Under the pieces are notes generated by a model. It did no database searches. It was not told the DNA's origin and saw only the letters and a list, made by a program, of their open reading frames with translations. From Ruminococcus sp. (GTDB lineage Bacteria; Bacillota; Clostridia; Oscillospirales; Acutalibacteraceae), in the NCBI GenBank assembly GCA_022768065.1, contig JALELS010000017.1:1-64000 (forward strand): a stretch of 64,000 nucleotides of DNA, written 5' to 3'. Made by a program: the position numbers and the translations under genes. This document shows, piece after piece, positions 6,198 to 55,955 of the stretch (its first letter is position 1; each line of letters starts with the position of its first letter).

Positions 6198-6273
6198 TGG
6201 AGCTACTGGCCGGACTTGAACCGGCGACCTGCTGATTACGAATCAGCTGCTCTACCAACTGAGCCACAGTAGC
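6198..6273 (-). tRNA. tRNA-Thr (anticodon CGT), CCA encoded
   Basis: On the minus strand a complete 76-base cloverleaf is seen. The acceptor pair is GCTACTG/CAGTAGC, the D arm is GCTC/GAGC, the anticodon stem GCTGA/TCAGC holds loop TTCGTAA with anticodon CGT, and the T arm is GCCGG/CCGGC. TCCA closes the 3' end. Read toward the acetyltransferase gene. Confidence 0.95.
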
Positions 6274-13401: not shown

Positions 13402-13477
13402 TGGAGCTGATAGGCAGACTCGAACTGCCGACCTCATCCTTACCAAGGATGTGCTCTACCACCTGAGCCATATCAGC
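13402..13477 (-). tRNA. tRNA-Thr (anticodon GGT), CCA encoded
   Basis: A 76-base cloverleaf: acceptor GCTGATA/TATCAGC, anticodon stem CATCC/GGATG around TTGGTAA (anticodon GGT), T arm GGCAG/CTGCC and a TCCA end. With the CGT tRNA at 6.2 kb this gives two threonine isoacceptors in the window. Confidence 0.95.
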
Positions 13478-25206: not shown

Positions 25207-26517
25207 TTAACAGCTTACAGAGGGAATCGGGAGCATAACCATTGCGTGGAATTCCCTGTTTTTGTCGTCATAAAACCACGAATAACTGCCGCCGTATTTT
25301 TCGGCTGTCTTTTTAATGCTCTTTATGCCGTATCCGTGGGACTTCGGGTCGGATTTGGCGCTCACAAGAACTTCGTTTTCGTATTTCGGCTCGGTCAAAG
25401 CGGTGTTTATAACGCTGACAACACAACTTTTGCCGTCCAAAGTATAAAGAGAAAATTCTATTTTACCGTCTTTTGCCTGTTTCGCCGCCTCAAAGGCGTT
25501 GTCGAGCAAATTGCCGACCATTGCGGAAATATCGCTGTCCTGCACAAATGACAGATTTGAAGTCAAAGCCTTGGCATTAAAGCTGAGGCCGTTTTTGCTG
25601 CAAAGGGCTGTGTATTTGCCGATTATAATATCAAGCATTTTGTTGCCGGTAAGCTGCGACACGGCGTAATATTTCCCGATATTACTGCACAACTCACCTA
25701 TATAAGACGTAACTTCTTCGTTATCGGCTATACTCTCTATTACGCCGAGATGATTTTTAATATCGTGCACCAAAATATGCATATTCTCATTTTGCTTGTC
25801 GAGTACGGCGTAATAATCTCTGTTTATGTCCTCGCGCTGGCGTTCCATATTGGCTTTCATAATTTCTTCGGATTTGCGCTGCATATTTTCATATACGGAA
25901 AACACCATTACGTCCGATACAAAAAGCAAAACGCTGCCGCCTATGCAGGCATATGCGAGTGAGCCGCTGATATTCACAAGCAACGACAGCCTTGCTATAA
26001 GAACTATAATATAAACGCTTGAAAAAGGAGAAATCAACAAGTACCAGGAATGCCCGTGATCTATGTGCTGTTTTTCACGCGACTTGAAATTTGAAACCAC
26101 AAGGCAGAAAATAAGATACAATGTTTTTGCAATTACCGCCGACATAGCGTACAAAACGTCGTTTGACCTGTAATCGGCTATGTTTATACCGAATATTCCC
26201 GAAATCAGCAATATCCCTATAAACTCCGTCGCCGTAAGCACGCCCGTAAGCAAGGCGCTGTGAAAAACAGCCGTTCTGAGATTTGTTTTAAATCCGAACT
26301 TTATTATCACGTACTTCACAATGAGACCGCAAACTATATTCAGCGCCACATTGTTGCCTGTAAGCTTATTTATCGAATAGTAAGCGGCAAAGCAGGCTAT
26401 ACCCATAAAAAGCGTTGATATTACCCTACGTCTTATGCCGAACACGCGGTAACAATATAAAAGAAGGGCACTGAGTTCTATCAGAAAAACATATACGGTT
26501 GTAACTTCGCCGAGCAT
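25207..26517 (-). CDS. agrC: AgrC-like sensor histidine kinase (GHKL)
   Basis: 436 residues. Six or seven membrane helices (about 1-205) form the peptide-sensing part, followed by a coiled segment and the dimerisation/phosphoacceptor motif LVHDIKNHLG (His near 252). The GHKL ATPase has an N box GNLLDNAFEAA (about 335-345) and a G box HGYGIKSI. This is the class that reads cyclic autoinducer peptides. It is the second gene of a minus-strand operon behind agrA, with a 3-base gap, opposite agrDB. agrA-C order on one strand and agrD-B on the other is a divergent version of the staphylococcal agr locus. Confidence 0.9.
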   Translation of the reverse strand: MLGEVTTVYVFLIELSALLLYCYRVFGIRRRVISTLFMGIACFAAYYSINKLTGNNVALNIVCGLIVKYVIIKFGFKTNLRTAVFHSALLTGVLTATEFIGILLISGIFGINIADYRSNDVLYAMSAVIAKTLYLIFCLVVSNFKSREKQHIDHGHSWYLLISPFSSVYIIVLIARLSLLVNISGSLAYACIGGSVLLFVSDVMVFSVYENMQRKSEEIMKANMERQREDINRDYYAVLDKQNENMHILVHDIKNHLGVIESIADNEEVTSYIGELCSNIGKYYAVSQLTGNKMLDIIIGKYTALCSKNGLSFNAKALTSNLSFVQDSDISAMVGNLLDNAFEAAKQAKDGKIEFSLYTLDGKSCVVSVINTALTEPKYENEVLVSAKSDPKSHGYGIKSIKKTAEKYGGSYSWFYDDKNREFHAMVMLPIPSVSC

Positions 26518-26520
26518 AGT

Positions 26521-27234
26521 TCATCGCCTGCTTTCAAAATAGCTCATAAGTATACGCTTTGTCTCTGCCTGACGTTTGGGAGCAACCGACACGGTATAAT
26601 GGTTTTTGCCGCCCTCAAGCTCTATTTCCGTTCTTGAGAATTTCACTATTTTATTCATATTTATAATAAAGCTGTTATGCGGCATCATAAAGAACGGTTC
26701 AGACAGCTCCTCGCGCCATTCCGAAAGCTTTTTCTTGGTGCGGAAGGTTTCGGTGTCGGTATATACTTTTGTTCTGCGCCTGTCCGTCTCTATCATAATA
26801 AGGTCGTTCAGCAGTATCTTTTTATAGTCCATATCGCCGTCGCGCAGATAAAAGCTGACGGTGGTATCGTTTAAAGTATCTATGGCGCGGTCTAAACCGG
26901 CATAGAGTCTTTCGCTGTTTATCGGCTTTTCAAGAAACCGCAACACCTTTAAATCCAGCGCGTCGTCAAGGTATTTTGAAAATGCCGTAACGACTATAAA
27001 AACTATACTCGGATTGTTTTGCCGCATCGCTTTGCCGACGTCAAGCCCGCTGACAGACCCTATTTCGATATCAAGAAACGCAATATCGAATTTCACCTGA
27101 GACTCCGTCGCCGCTTTTCCGTCAGTAAACACATATGTTTTATGCGGAATTTCTCTGCGTGTAAAATAACAATCGACGTGCTTTTTGATTTCATCCGCAT
27201 AAACCTGCTCGTCGTCGCAAATTGCAATATTCAT
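26521..27234 (-). CDS. agrA: AgrA-like response regulator (REC-LytTR)
   Basis: 237 residues from the ATG at 27234 (GAGGGGG upstream). The receiver domain (1-120) has the acidic pocket CDDE (6-9), phosphoacceptor Asp in AFLDIEIG (about 55) and a conserved Lys in LEKPI. The C-terminal LytTR domain (about 135-237) contains the FYLRDGDMDYKKILLNDLIMIETDRR start and the MPHNSFIINMNKI region, which in AgrA inserts beta strands into DNA grooves. It should bind the paired boxes at 27675-27706 upstream of agrDB. It is cotranscribed with agrC. Confidence 0.9.
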   Translation of the reverse strand: MNIAICDDEQVYADEIKKHVDCYFTRREIPHKTYVFTDGKAATESQVKFDIAFLDIEIGSVSGLDVGKAMRQNNPSIVFIVVTAFSKYLDDALDLKVLRFLEKPINSERLYAGLDRAIDTLNDTTVSFYLRDGDMDYKKILLNDLIMIETDRRRTKVYTDTETFRTKKKLSEWREELSEPFFMMPHNSFIINMNKIVKFSRTEIELEGGKNHYTVSVAPKRQAETKRILMSYFESRR

Positions 27235-27289: not shown

Positions 27290-27318
27290 ATTATATTACA
27301 AAATTCGCCGAATTTCAA
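27290..27318 (-). promoter_or_regulatory. Promoter of agrA-agrC
   Basis: TTGAAA and TATAAT separated by 17 bases on the minus strand. The -35 lies inside the last codons of the XRE gene, giving agrAC its own promoter separate from the regulator upstream. Confidence 0.65.
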
Positions 27319-27626
27319 TCTTTGAGGAGTTCGACAATATCGTAGATAAGGTTTTGCTTGTCCTTTGAGCAGAGTTTTAAAGAATCTTCGATATTACCTA
27401 CGGTATCTTCCCTGATATGTCCGAGCAAGAAAAAATCGGGTGTTTTTCCCAAAGCAATGCTGAGTTCCGTAAAAATTTCCAGGCTCGGCACGGTATACCC
27501 GTTTTCGATGTTAGACAAGTAGTTGTTACTTATGCCCACAGTTTTTGCAAGCTCTTTTTGACTGATTTTTTCCTTTCTTCGATAAGTGCCAATCATTTTG
27601 CCCGCAGTTTTGTAGTCGATTTTCAT
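27315..27626 (-). CDS. XRE-family transcriptional regulator in the agr locus
   Basis: 103 residues. The N-terminal helix-turn-helix (about 8-62: IGTYRRKEKISQKELAKTVG, then NNYLSNIENG) is of the lambda-repressor/Cro type; the rest is a helical tail. It lies between divergent agrDB and agrAC, oriented with agrAC, and is a natural candidate to control agr expression. AAGGTGGGG precedes the ATG. No sensory domain is visible, so its signal is unknown. Its 3' end carries the agrAC promoter. Confidence 0.88.
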   Translation of the reverse strand: MKIDYKTAGKMIGTYRRKEKISQKELAKTVGISNNYLSNIENGYTVPSLEIFTELSIALGKTPDFFLLGHIREDTVGNIEDSLKLCSKDKQNLIYDIVELLKD

Positions 27627-27674: not shown

Positions 27675-27706
27675 AACATTTTAGTTTCAACGATTTAACA
27701 CTTTAG
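27675..27706 (+). promoter_or_regulatory. Paired AgrA-like LytTR boxes
   Basis: AACATTTTAG (27675-27684) and AACACTTTAG (27697-27706) are direct repeats on one DNA face, 22 bases centre to centre. Each matches 7 of 10 positions of the AgrA site I recall (TACAGTTAAG). The second ends 9 bases before the -35 of the agrDB promoter, as in staphylococcal P2/P3. Confidence 0.6.
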
Positions 27707-27715
27707 CAATCTGCA

Positions 27716-27744
27716 TTGACTTGTGTTATTATAGCACATATAAT
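27716..27744 (+). promoter_or_regulatory. Promoter of agrD-agrB
   Basis: TTGACT, 17 bases, perfect TATAAT; transcription would begin near 27751, leaving a leader of about 50 bases. Confidence 0.8.
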
Positions 27745-27801: not shown

Positions 27802-27951
27802 ATGAAAAAGGCGGAAAAAACCATGAGGAGCTTCGCAAAGACCCTCATCACGGCATCGGTTAAAGGCAGTGCCAATTCGGCAGCTACCACATTTATGTAT
27901 CAGCCGAAAAAGCCGGAAGGTCTTGAGAAATTCTCAAAGCTCGGTAAATGA
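27802..27951 (+). CDS. agrD: AgrD-like autoinducer prepeptide lacking cysteine
   Basis: 49 residues from the ATG at 27802, set by the strong AGGGAGG site; an upstream extension has none. The layout is that of AgrD: a basic amphipathic leader (MKKAEKTMRSFAKTLITASV), a core (NSAATTFMYQPKKPEGL) and a charged tail (EKFSKLGK). The MYQPKKPEGL block aligns with the conserved QPxxP tail cleaved by AgrB. Relatives have Cys, or sometimes Ser, at the ring position (as in TSACLWFT of Clostridium perfringens). Here Ala occupies it, with Thr next and Ser two before. The gene overlaps agrB by 4 bases (ATGA). Confidence 0.8.
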   Translation: MKKAEKTMRSFAKTLITASVKGSANSAATTFMYQPKKPEGLEKFSKLGK

Positions 27952-28529
27952 TCGGTTCTCTTTCGGAACAGATCGCAAAATGGCTGAACAGCAAAAAAAT
28001 TATTGAGGCGGAAGATGTCGAGGTCTGCGGATACGGCATCTTTTGGCTCCTCAATATAATAGAATTTTTACTTGTTTCGGTCATTCTCGGTACGGTCTTA
28101 AAAGTTTTGCCGGGAGCGCTCGCATTTTTTATCTCCTTCCTTTTGCTTCGCCTTTTCGGCGGAGGATTTCACATGGATACGGAATTAAAATGTCAGATAA
28201 CGTCTCTCGCCATAATAACGGCGTTCATAATTGCGGTAAAAATGACCGCCGTACAAAAAGCTTCTTTTTTTATGCTGCTTGCGGCGGCAGCCGGTACTGT
28301 CGTTCTTTTTATCTTTGCACCGACAGGCGCAGGATTTGAGGGCGGTCAGATAAAGGCTTATCGCAGAATATGCCGACTGGTTTGTGCGGCATCGCTTTTT
28401 ACGGCAATCGTTATGTTTGTTTTTAAAGTATATGCTGTCGTATCGGGTATAGCGGCCGGCATTATCGCAGAGGGACTTTTGTGCCTCGCGGAAATACTTA
28501 AAGAGCACCGTGCCGTAACAAAAAAATAA
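27948..28529 (+). CDS. agrB: AgrB-family peptide-processing membrane protease
   Basis: 193 residues with about five membrane helices. The catalytic pair is in place: His in GGGFHMD and Cys seven residues later in LKCQITS (about residues 75 and 82), the spacing of AgrB His77/Cys84. The preceding LLRLFGG is also family-typical. AgrB cuts the AgrD tail and closes the thiolactone or lactone ring. The start overlaps the agrD stop (ATGA), so translation is coupled. A terminator follows 20-45 bases after the stop. Confidence 0.92.
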   Translation: MIGSLSEQIAKWLNSKKIIEAEDVEVCGYGIFWLLNIIEFLLVSVILGTVLKVLPGALAFFISFLLLRLFGGGFHMDTELKCQITSLAIITAFIIAVKMTAVQKASFFMLLAAAAGTVVLFIFAPTGAGFEGGQIKAYRRICRLVCAASLFTAIVMFVFKVYAVVSGIAAGIIAEGLLCLAEILKEHRAVTKK

Positions 28530-28601: not shown

Positions 28602-28898
28602 TTATTGTCTGAAAAGCGTATCTATGGGATTTTTCGGTTTTTGCGGCATAAGCTCATCGGGGCAGTCAAAATTCACAAGTATGGTATCGTCGCCTATAAC
28701 CTCAATTTCATCCCATTTTATCTTGATGTCTTTCGGCTTGCCGCCCCTGAACGGAAGTCTGCCCTTACCGTATATGACTATCGAAACAAGAGAACCGCTT
28801 AAAGTGTCTATTTCGATATCACAAACAGAGCCGAGCCTTGCACCGTCCTTCAGATTTATTATTTCGCGTTCCCTGAGATCCTGCACACTGCAAACCAT
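28602..28898 (-). CDS. YlmC/YmxH-family PRC-barrel sporulation protein
   Basis: 98 residues covering a single PRC-barrel: LREREIINLKDGARLGSVCDIEID, then SIVIYGKGRLPF and KIKWDEIEVIGDDTILVNF. This small family is regularly found beside sporulation or cell-division genes in Clostridia and Bacillus; no activity has been shown. Here it follows sigG on the same strand with a 51-base gap, a frequent pairing, so it is probably expressed with sigG during sporulation. Confidence 0.88.
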   Translation of the reverse strand: MVCSVQDLREREIINLKDGARLGSVCDIEIDTLSGSLVSIVIYGKGRLPFRGGKPKDIKIKWDEIEVIGDDTILVNFDCPDELMPQKPKNPIDTLFRQ

Positions 28899-28949: not shown

Positions 28950-29714
28950 CTATCCTTTAATCTTTTTAATTGCGCCCTTTTCAAGCCTTGACACCTGCGC
29001 CTGCGAAATGCCGATTTCCGACGCTACCTCCATCTGCGTTTTTCCCTTCATAAATCTAAGCGCCAGTATCTTTTTTTCACGCTGTGACAAATCCTTTATG
29101 CTCTCCTTAATAGAGATTTCGTCAAGCCAGTCGGTATCCGTCTCGCTGCCGCCGACCTGATCCATAACATATATTGTATCTCCGCCGTCGGAGTAAACCG
29201 GTTCAAAGAGCGAGACCGGCTCCACTATCGCCTCAAGCGCCAGAACTACGTCCGAACGGCTCGTGCCGAGTTCCTTTGCTATTTCGTCAACCGTGGGGTC
29301 TCTGCCGAGCTTCGTCTGCAATTTTTCTTTTGCCCCAAGTGCGTGGTATGCCGTATCCCTGACGGAGCGGCTGACACGCACCGAGTTGTTGTCCCTGAGG
29401 TAGCGCCGTATTTCACCGATGATCATGGGTACCGCGTATGTGGAAAAGCGGACATTTTGAGAAATATCGAAGTTATCTATCGCCTTTATAAGTCCTATTA
29501 CGCCGACCTGAAAAAGGTCGTCAAGGTTTTCGCCGCGGTTTGTGAACCTCTGTATAACGCTCAAAACGAGGCGCAGATTGCCGTTTATCAATTTGTCGCG
29601 CGCCGACTTGTCGCCCTCTTTGATTTTCTTCAGGAGCTCAAGCTTTTCCTTTTCTTTAAGGACCTTCAGTTTAGATGTATCGACACCGCAAATTTCAACT
29701 TTGCTGTACTGCAT
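28950..29714 (-). CDS. sigG: Sporulation sigma factor SigG
   Basis: 254 residues from the ATG at 29714 (AGGAGAG 8 bases before). The SigG signature KVEICGVDTSKLKVL stands at the N-terminus (about 4-18). Region 2 contains GNLRLVLSVIQRF and DDLFQVGVIGLIKAIDNFD, with the -10-reading RFSTYAVPMIIGEIRRYLRD. Regions 3 and 4 end with QMEVASEIGISQAQVSRLEK for -35 recognition. SigG drives late forespore transcription after engulfment. No spoIIGA or sigE is in the window, so the usual sigE-sigG cluster is not seen here. Confidence 0.95.
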   Translation of the reverse strand: MQYSKVEICGVDTSKLKVLKEKEKLELLKKIKEGDKSARDKLINGNLRLVLSVIQRFTNRGENLDDLFQVGVIGLIKAIDNFDISQNVRFSTYAVPMIIGEIRRYLRDNNSVRVSRSVRDTAYHALGAKEKLQTKLGRDPTVDEIAKELGTSRSDVVLALEAIVEPVSLFEPVYSDGGDTIYVMDQVGGSETDTDWLDEISIKESIKDLSQREKKILALRFMKGKTQMEVASEIGISQAQVSRLEKGAIKKIKG

Positions 29715-30196
29715 GGCGCTCTCTCCTAAAACTATTGTCAATAGGATTATTGCCGTGCATTTCTCTCTTAATACAAAACGCACCGTGAAAAATCGCGACC
29801 CGTTTTTTGGTAATATTTATTTTAATAATCCGTAAATATTGGGTTATACTCTGCCTTTATTTCACGGAAACATTCGCCGCAGGCGAAAGCGCAAAAACAT
29901 CATAGACAAATTTCGACGTGTTACGCCTGCTTTTATGTTGACTTTTTATACACAATCGGGTACTATTGTGGTACAAATTTGTATTGTATAATACTTTGGT
30001 GTGTACCTGATGCGGGCAGCACTATCGGTGCGGATAAGGACGAGGGCAAACCCTTTACGGCAGAATTTCAGGGGTTAATCTTTAAGCTTCCGAGTGCGGC
30101 AAAAAGAATTTTAAATTTACGCATGGGTAATATCGGTGATATTATCCGTTTTTTTATTTTTCGGCGACTTGTTTTCGATTGCAGCAAAGCAATTCT
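29715..30196. other. Gene-free region with remnant of a binding-protein gene
   Basis: No intact gene is supported. On the minus strand, 29778-29900 resembles the terminator and last codons of the substrate-binding protein gene at 34.6 kb: FALSPAANVSVK-stop compared with FAPLTQAGKLSVK-stop. Confidence 0.55.
29778..29900 (-). repeat. Degraded second copy of the binding-protein gene 3' end and terminator
   Basis: This segment parallels 34538-34640: the hairpin core CCGTGAAAAATCGCGA, then TTTAATAATCCG, then CTTTATTT(C/T)ACGGAAA next to the stop codon. The frame before that stop still reads FA...SVK as in the intact gene. It lies between sigG and the variable region. Confidence 0.55.
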
Positions 30197-55496: not shown

Positions 55497-55955
55497 AAAT
55501 GTAAAGTTTGTTAACTCAAAAAAACTGCTGAAGTGTGTTTTCAACAGAGTTTTCGCCAAGTTTTTTTACTCAATATTTCTTGCAAGTTTTCACTCAATGC
55601 AACACACGCATTGTTCTTAAGAAAATGTCATAACTTTAGCAGTTTTGGTTCTGCTGTAAAGACCATTATGCAAATGACATATGCGAATTCTTAATACGGT
55701 GAAGCATTTTAAGCGAGTGCCGTCTCTGTTTTTTTATATCTGCTTAACTGCAGTAAATAACGCCGTATCAGTAATTGCCTTAGACAGTTTTAAGGTGTTA
55801 TGTCTCCACCATGGCCAACACATATATTGAGAACAGAAAAGAGAAATATTTTTTCGATTTGAATCATCCCCTTTACGCTAATGGTCAAATTCATTTTAAC
55901 AAAATTTATCAGACTTGTAAAGTTTTTTTCCAAAACTGACAAAGAAAGGAGAAAT
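55497..55955. other. Gene-free early region of the prophage
   Basis: 460 bases after the Cro-like gene with an operator copy at its left edge. Short frames on both strands lack starts or sites. I see no promoter of good quality and no known RNA motif. It is more AT-rich toward the right. Confidence 0.5.

Follow-up and report, generated by a model that had tools for sequence, protein, structure and literature searches.

According to the accessible parts of the reviews, agr signals are Cys thiolactones together with a few Ser lactones (PMC12312760, PMC3673130, PMC10482373). The Cys thiolactone AIPs given in the available part of one of them include S. aureus YST[CDFIM], C. perfringens [CLWFT] and C. 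difficile agr1 ANST[CPWII] (PMC12312760). Closure by Ser is also established, as far as the accessible text of PMC3673130, PMC12312760 and PMC10482373 goes, and is exemplified by S. pseudintermedius RIPT[STGFF], C. difficile agr2 NSA[SSWVA] and E. faecalis GBAP QN[SPNIFGQWM] (PMC12312760). No Thr-closed example stands in the AIP table of that review in its accessible form, nor is a Thr-closed agr signal mentioned in the available portions of PMC13220807, PMC13151043, PMC12405376 and PMC4979651; a wider search of the open-licence literature, mostly at the level of titles and abstracts, found none.

Regarding the enzyme, mutagenesis of S. aureus AgrB Cys86 points to an acyl-enzyme that is attacked by AgrD Cys28 (accessible sections of PMC4979651). 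S. aureus AgrB1 and AgrB2 were reported to be unable to process a Ser-bearing AgrD (PMC10482373, available part), which implies that hydroxyl closure needs an adapted enzyme.

Here, we describe an agr locus found in a 64,000-nucleotide stretch of a Ruminococcus sp. contig (hereafter, the window), which is, in most respects, an ordinary open agr locus and whose signal is probably a Thr lactone. As in Cys thiolactone systems, its AgrD is built of leader, core and tail, the adjacent AgrB carries His and Cys, an AgrC/AgrA pair is present and a five-residue ring would be expected; it differs from them in the Thr found at the ring column and in the placement of agrCA, with xre, divergent from agrDB. 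The predicted ring would be an oxygen ester rather than a thioester, as in Ser lactone AIPs, but formed through the secondary hydroxyl of Thr. The exocyclic ANSxx tail resembles that of C. difficile agr1, ANST[CPWII] (PMC12312760, accessible part), whereas, compared with C. perfringens-type AgrDs, the ring residue lies one position closer to QP. Uncultured Clostridia carry Cys- and Ser-type agr loci (found among L150-L168 and L172-L178) that share with the window the divergent gene order where they are complete, an ANSxx-like core and a [Q/E]P..P tail, but the window has Thr at their Cys/Ser column.

Organization of the agr locus

The features of the locus and other elements of the window are listed in Table 1. 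The AgrD-like precursor of the preliminary description proved to be a real open reading frame that scores above the family cut-off, and, as had been noted, no Cys is present anywhere in its 49 residues. Its frame overlaps that of agrB by four bases and both are open. On the opposite strand, agrC, agrA and xre form the divergent half of a compact five-gene locus, in which an AgrC-type kinase and a LytTR regulator accompany agrBD. AgrC and AgrA, previously judged to be intact, are indeed encoded by open frames that match their respective domain families in family scans; for agrA, the ATG at 27234 was chosen as start, the open frame extending to 27318.

Table 1. Positions and strands of the agr locus features and of other elements of the window
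Feature	Position	Strand	Description
agrC	25207..26517	-	Membrane histidine kinase, GHKL ATPase domain; PF14501 68.8 bits
agrA	26521..27234	-	Response regulator, LytTR domain; PF00072 and PF04397
xre	27315..27626	-	HTH regulator, Cro/CI-type; PF01381 57.4 bits
Direct repeat AACATTTTAG / AACACTTTAG	27675..27706	+	22-bp period; just 5' of the promoter-like site
Promoter-like site TTGACT-17-TATAAT	27716..27744	+	Upstream of agrDB; 11/12 matches, consensus match only
agrD	27802..27951	+	49-aa signal precursor MKKAEKTMRSFAKTLITASVKGSANSAATTFMYQPKKPEGLEKFSKLGK; TIGR04223 26.1 bits, cut-off 19
Predicted signal core ANSAA[TTFMY]	27871..27900	+	Register from the alignment of relatives; cleavage points inferred
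Ring residue Thr29	27886-27888	+	
Tyr33	27898-27900	+	
agrB	27948..28529	+	Membrane peptidase/cyclase, 193 aa; PF04647 88.7 bits, cut-off 23
PRC-barrel protein	28602-28898	-	Adjoins the sigma-70 factor
Sigma-70 factor	28950-29783	-	Regions 2, 3 and 4
FuFi-1 RNA (RF02986)	55518-55679	-	107.8 bits, gathering score 59.6
Two tRNA-Thr genes	6198-6273 and 13402-13477	-	About 7 kb apart; anticodons differ (CGT, GGT)

The divergent order agrC-agrA-xre / agrD-agrB, with all five genes, was observed in 25 of the 33 loci examined, some of which have an agrC truncated where the stretch stops, and xre is a recurrent member of the divergent half (25/33). The direct repeat upstream of agrD is a possible, weak candidate for an AgrA site; some direct repeat of that kind was found at 10 of 25 loci scanned, the window included, with no motif in common, and the repeat of the window thus carries little weight. 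The sigma-70 factor and the adjoining PRC-barrel protein stand directly beside agrB and may have a role in sporulation.

The genome assembly from which the window comes (1.92 Mb in 32 contigs, 96.8% complete) yielded a single AgrB, the sole other match (E 0.108, 25% identity) having a stop inside, and a single AgrD above the cut-off, the sole other match reaching 13.4 bits. A second, Cys-bearing agrD that AgrB might actually use, sought at the suggestion of the preliminary description, was not found above the cut-off in this genome, although a copy could lie in a gap of the 32-contig draft. A search of the window AgrB against genome_contigs returned no match. Among solved structures compared by sequence, no relative was found for AgrB with E up to 1, the one match (E 0.096) bearing an unrelated name, or for AgrC with E up to 0.01.

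The register of the ring residue

Two registers of the ring residue can be distinguished in these AgrDs. Many members of the genus resemble ANSTTCVMVYQPKAP...KKFSK, in which Cys stands four positions before the residue preceding QP, whereas the C. perfringens type, with three representatives in the window's genus such as AACTYIFHQPKVP, has the ring residue five positions before it. Three features assign the window to the first register: the gene order, which includes xre, the K-F-S-K tail and the AgrDs to which its own is closest. When 16 AgrDs were aligned, with no gap in the core, Thr29 fell at the ring column, which holds Cys in nine, Ser in three and Thr in four of them. Of the 31 AgrDs compared, that of L164 (KGSANSATCGMFYQPKAP) is the most similar, matching at 20 of 38 positions, and its Cys coincides with Thr29, as seen when its KGSANSATCGMFYQPKAPAALKKFSK is set against KGSANSAATTFMYQPKKPEGLEKFSK of the window.

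The proposal that the ring position is occupied by Ala was consequently abandoned: the earlier alignment had used the C. perfringens-type register, in which the window would show Ala, a non-nucleophile, and this register is off by one for the lineage of the window, in which the ring residue is shifted by one position towards QP and Ala is position 28. A lactone through the neighbouring Thr, also considered in the preliminary description, is possible, but the different ring size envisaged there is not required, since Thr29 occupies the Cys/Ser column and would give a five-residue ring if cleavage follows Tyr33. Regarding the AgrD family, the window has a nucleophile at the ring column, a hydroxyl rather than a thiol, next to an AgrB with the catalytic His and Cys; it departs both from the Cys thiolactone AIPs, as its AgrD is Cys-free, and from the Ser lactone AIPs, as its nearest Ser is at position 26.

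The spacing between ANS and QP does not fix the register by itself. In a broader pattern of 42 cores, the ring column holds Cys in 22, Ser in seven, Thr in four and another residue in nine; these nine share the spacing of the window but carry Cys (8) or Ser (1) at the preceding position, i.e., in the other register, as in ANSTCVFISHQP, where Cys falls at Ala28 of the window. Alignments anchored on QP only can indicate the wrong ring residue. Two of the 22 Cys cores, those of L078 (VNSTCCFTAYQP) and L095 (ANTACCYWVHQP), carry a Cys at each of the two possible ring columns and could help to decide how AgrB picks the register. Other arrangements were also observed. In the L147 core, SCPHIWSYQPHRP, six positions separate Cys from the residue preceding QP, in line with a six-residue ring such as that listed for C. 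acetobutylicum, and the L181 core (G302), NTVTLFDCYQPKEP, has Thr at the ring column of the C. perfringens-type register and a Cys preceding Tyr; it could possibly form another Thr ring or something via its Cys.

Residues at the ring column in related AgrDs

The relatives came from several surveys. Of 39 genomes of the genus, the window's own included, 16 contained AgrB, and AgrD was matched at E 0.1 in 15, with scores exceeding the cut-off in 11 of these; of 394 genomes of the order, AgrB (E 1e-8) was found in 56 and the genus AgrD alignment matched (E 0.01) in 38. When seven AgrDs were used as queries against named genomes, 19 loci were recovered, the record titles of which are mostly uncultured Clostridia, Ruminococcaceae, Oscillospiraceae or Eubacterium (e.g., Clostridium sp. 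CAG:678), and some of which, such as L150 and L163, carry an AgrD identical to that of genomes of the window's genus. The L160 AgrD is that of G181 (genus g31), yet its record (JAMPEQ010000001.1) is titled Bacteroides sp. and is perhaps a mislabelled or mixed MAG.

Across 31 distinct cores from 32 loci, the ring column holds Cys in 20, Ser in seven and Thr in four. This set and the overlapping set of 42 cores were unfiltered on the ring column, the pattern requiring N before it and an aromatic residue or His before QP/EP. Cys, Ser or Thr make up 31 of 31 residues at the ring column and 13 of 93 in the three hypervariable columns that follow; no p-value is claimed for this comparison, whose rows are related to one another. 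Elsewhere in the 15-residue core, Cys occurs three times only, in two downstream columns (2 + 1). A family search of 398 genomes, with matches in 22, enlarged the sample by 11 distinct cores, with Cys in eight, Ser in two and Thr in one. These were left of the 14 AgrDs obtained at 15 loci once duplicates had been set aside, the cores of L183 and L188 being already known and that of L195 being identical to that of L171; no AgrD came from L192. On the other hand, the 79 AgrB-AgrD pairs collected (Cys 49, Ser 25, Thr 5) do not test the restriction, because three core columns had to hold C, S or T for a pair to be included. In an unfiltered look at the neighbours of 93 distinct AgrB frames, AgrD candidates were found for 86.

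In most cores, Ser or Thr precedes the ring residue; the window has Ala instead, L170 has Asn and three Cys-type cores have Gly, and the tolerance of Gly, Ala or Asn argues that this position is unnecessary for the ring. Ala28 and the Lys of QPKKP are each unique to the window among the 31 cores.

Thr-type loci and AgrB

The preliminary description had asked whether close relatives share the Cys-less form; most have Cys at the ring column, but Thr also occurs at four other loci (L169-L171 and L182) in three genera: G001 and G029 (g1), G181 (g31) and G740 (g218). In all four, agrB, agrA and xre are open, and agrC is present at those of G001, G029 and G181. In a tree of 29 loci, which replaced an earlier one that included the outlier L181, these three form one clade (support 100/100); G740, outside the tree set, has an AgrB with the HRF.GGFH stretch seen in the AgrBs of the Thr clade. 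The window falls outside this clade, and at least two changes to Thr are needed on the tree. Forcing the window and the clade together lowered the log-likelihood by 14.2, with a p-AU of 0.0457, a borderline rejection involving long branches. At three of the four other Thr loci, Thr is preceded by Ser, which could act there as the nucleophile in the other register; at L170 (G029), it is preceded by Asn. Judged from their AgrDs, the window and G029 would be the clean Thr cases, since Ala and Asn are not nucleophiles.

In AgrB, Phe (Phe74 in the window) replaces Tyr just before the catalytic His in 5/5 Thr, 5/9 Ser and 0/32 Cys loci of this register, raw counts in which some Cys rows are near-duplicates and loci outside the 29-locus tree are included. 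Within the tree set, Phe was found in seven of eight hydroxyl-type and none of 21 Cys-type loci, and in 10/14 versus 0/32 when outside loci are added; Tyr is kept in the Ser loci L168, L172, L189 and L193. Since the tree offers only three independent pairs, too few for significance, and Phe is also found in the other register, in 3/27 Cys loci (one of the 27 unreadable) as well as in 5/18 Ser loci, the association between Phe and hydroxyl closure is a lead only.

Alternative explanations

Considering that the ring column of the window has neither Cys nor Ser, and that sequence cannot prove closure, the mature signal could be a linear peptide. The consistent presence of a Cys, Ser or Thr at this column in relatives, as opposed to the columns that follow, makes this very improbable, and so does the outcome of the neighbour survey: of 23 candidate open reading frames without these residues at both ring positions, 22 were not AgrD by eye and the remaining one, L147, has its Cys further upstream. 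A ring closed via another hydroxyl is also rather unlikely, although two are present near the ring site. Closure by Thr30 would give a four-residue ring, and its column is hypervariable, with 11 different residues in 31 cores. Closure by Ser26 would give an eight-residue ring, for which there is a large-ring precedent in E. faecalis GBAP, QN[SPNIFGQWM], a nine-residue Ser lactone (PMC12312760, accessible part), and Ser or Thr is near-constant at that column (29/31); Cys, however, is never found there (0/31), whereas it occupies the Thr29 column in 20 of the 31.

A failing or receiver-only system, in which agrB and agrD would be decaying but agrC and agrA retained, is likewise unlikely. The window AgrB departs from the consensus at six of the 16 positions with 93% or higher conservation across 28 relatives (next member, 3/15), and its PLDTPEKPL loop, conserved elsewhere, reads PTGA---GFEGG, with a deletion of three residues; departures at near-invariant positions number 1/8 in AgrC and 1/23 in AgrA, and the two residues of AgrD unique to the window point the same way. 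Conversely, agrD and agrB are open and overlapping, a promoter-like site lies upstream of agrD, and AgrB retains its Gly-Gly motif and the pair His75 and Cys82, whose presence had been correctly noted earlier and which is kept in all 30 loci aligned. Additionally, although no other locus has an end branch as long as that of the window in any of the three gene trees, its AgrB/AgrA branches (1.56/0.88) stand in the same ratio as those of the next longest, L176 (1.42/0.79), a Cys-type locus, which speaks against decay of agrB alone. The divergence of the window AgrB may reflect adaptation or decay, and weakened or decaying signalling is possible. The suggestion that the window carries a dead allele, to be recognized by Cys-bearing relatives and a decayed agrB, is weakened, as those relatives have open agrB genes with His and Cys; it is no more than weakened because the window AgrB is the one that departs most from the others.

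Predicted maturation of the signal

With some confidence, we favour a functional quorum-sensing locus of the agr type, the signal of which would be a lactone closed by Thr29. By analogy with S. aureus AgrB, Cys82 would cleave AgrD after Tyr33, giving an acyl-enzyme, and the side-chain hydroxyl of Thr29 would attack it at Tyr33, yielding the five-residue ring Thr-Thr-Phe-Met-Tyr. Cleavage was placed after Tyr33 because the ring would then have the usual five residues; a cut ahead of Tyr33, the position that a C. perfringens-type tail would suggest, would leave a ring of four residues. Trimming at the N-terminus would then give a product of about ANSAA[TTFMY], with ANSAA exocyclic, which, once exported, may be sensed by AgrC; this kinase would in turn drive AgrA and, probably, the promoter of agrDB. 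The greater bulk of Thr as a nucleophile, compared with Ser, counts against closure by Thr.

Significance for agr signalling

A broader proposal, which we hold tentatively and at somewhat less than even chance, is that Thr represents a third natural ring-closing residue, arisen at least twice in one Clostridia family and kept across three genera, together with an oxygen-adapted AgrB carrying Phe for Tyr before His. An oxygen ester should withstand thiols better than a thioester. The switching of the ring column among Cys, Ser and Thr provides a set of natural variants in which the choice of nucleophile by AgrB could be studied, and searches for agr signals that demand Cys or Ser would overlook Thr-type loci such as that of the window.
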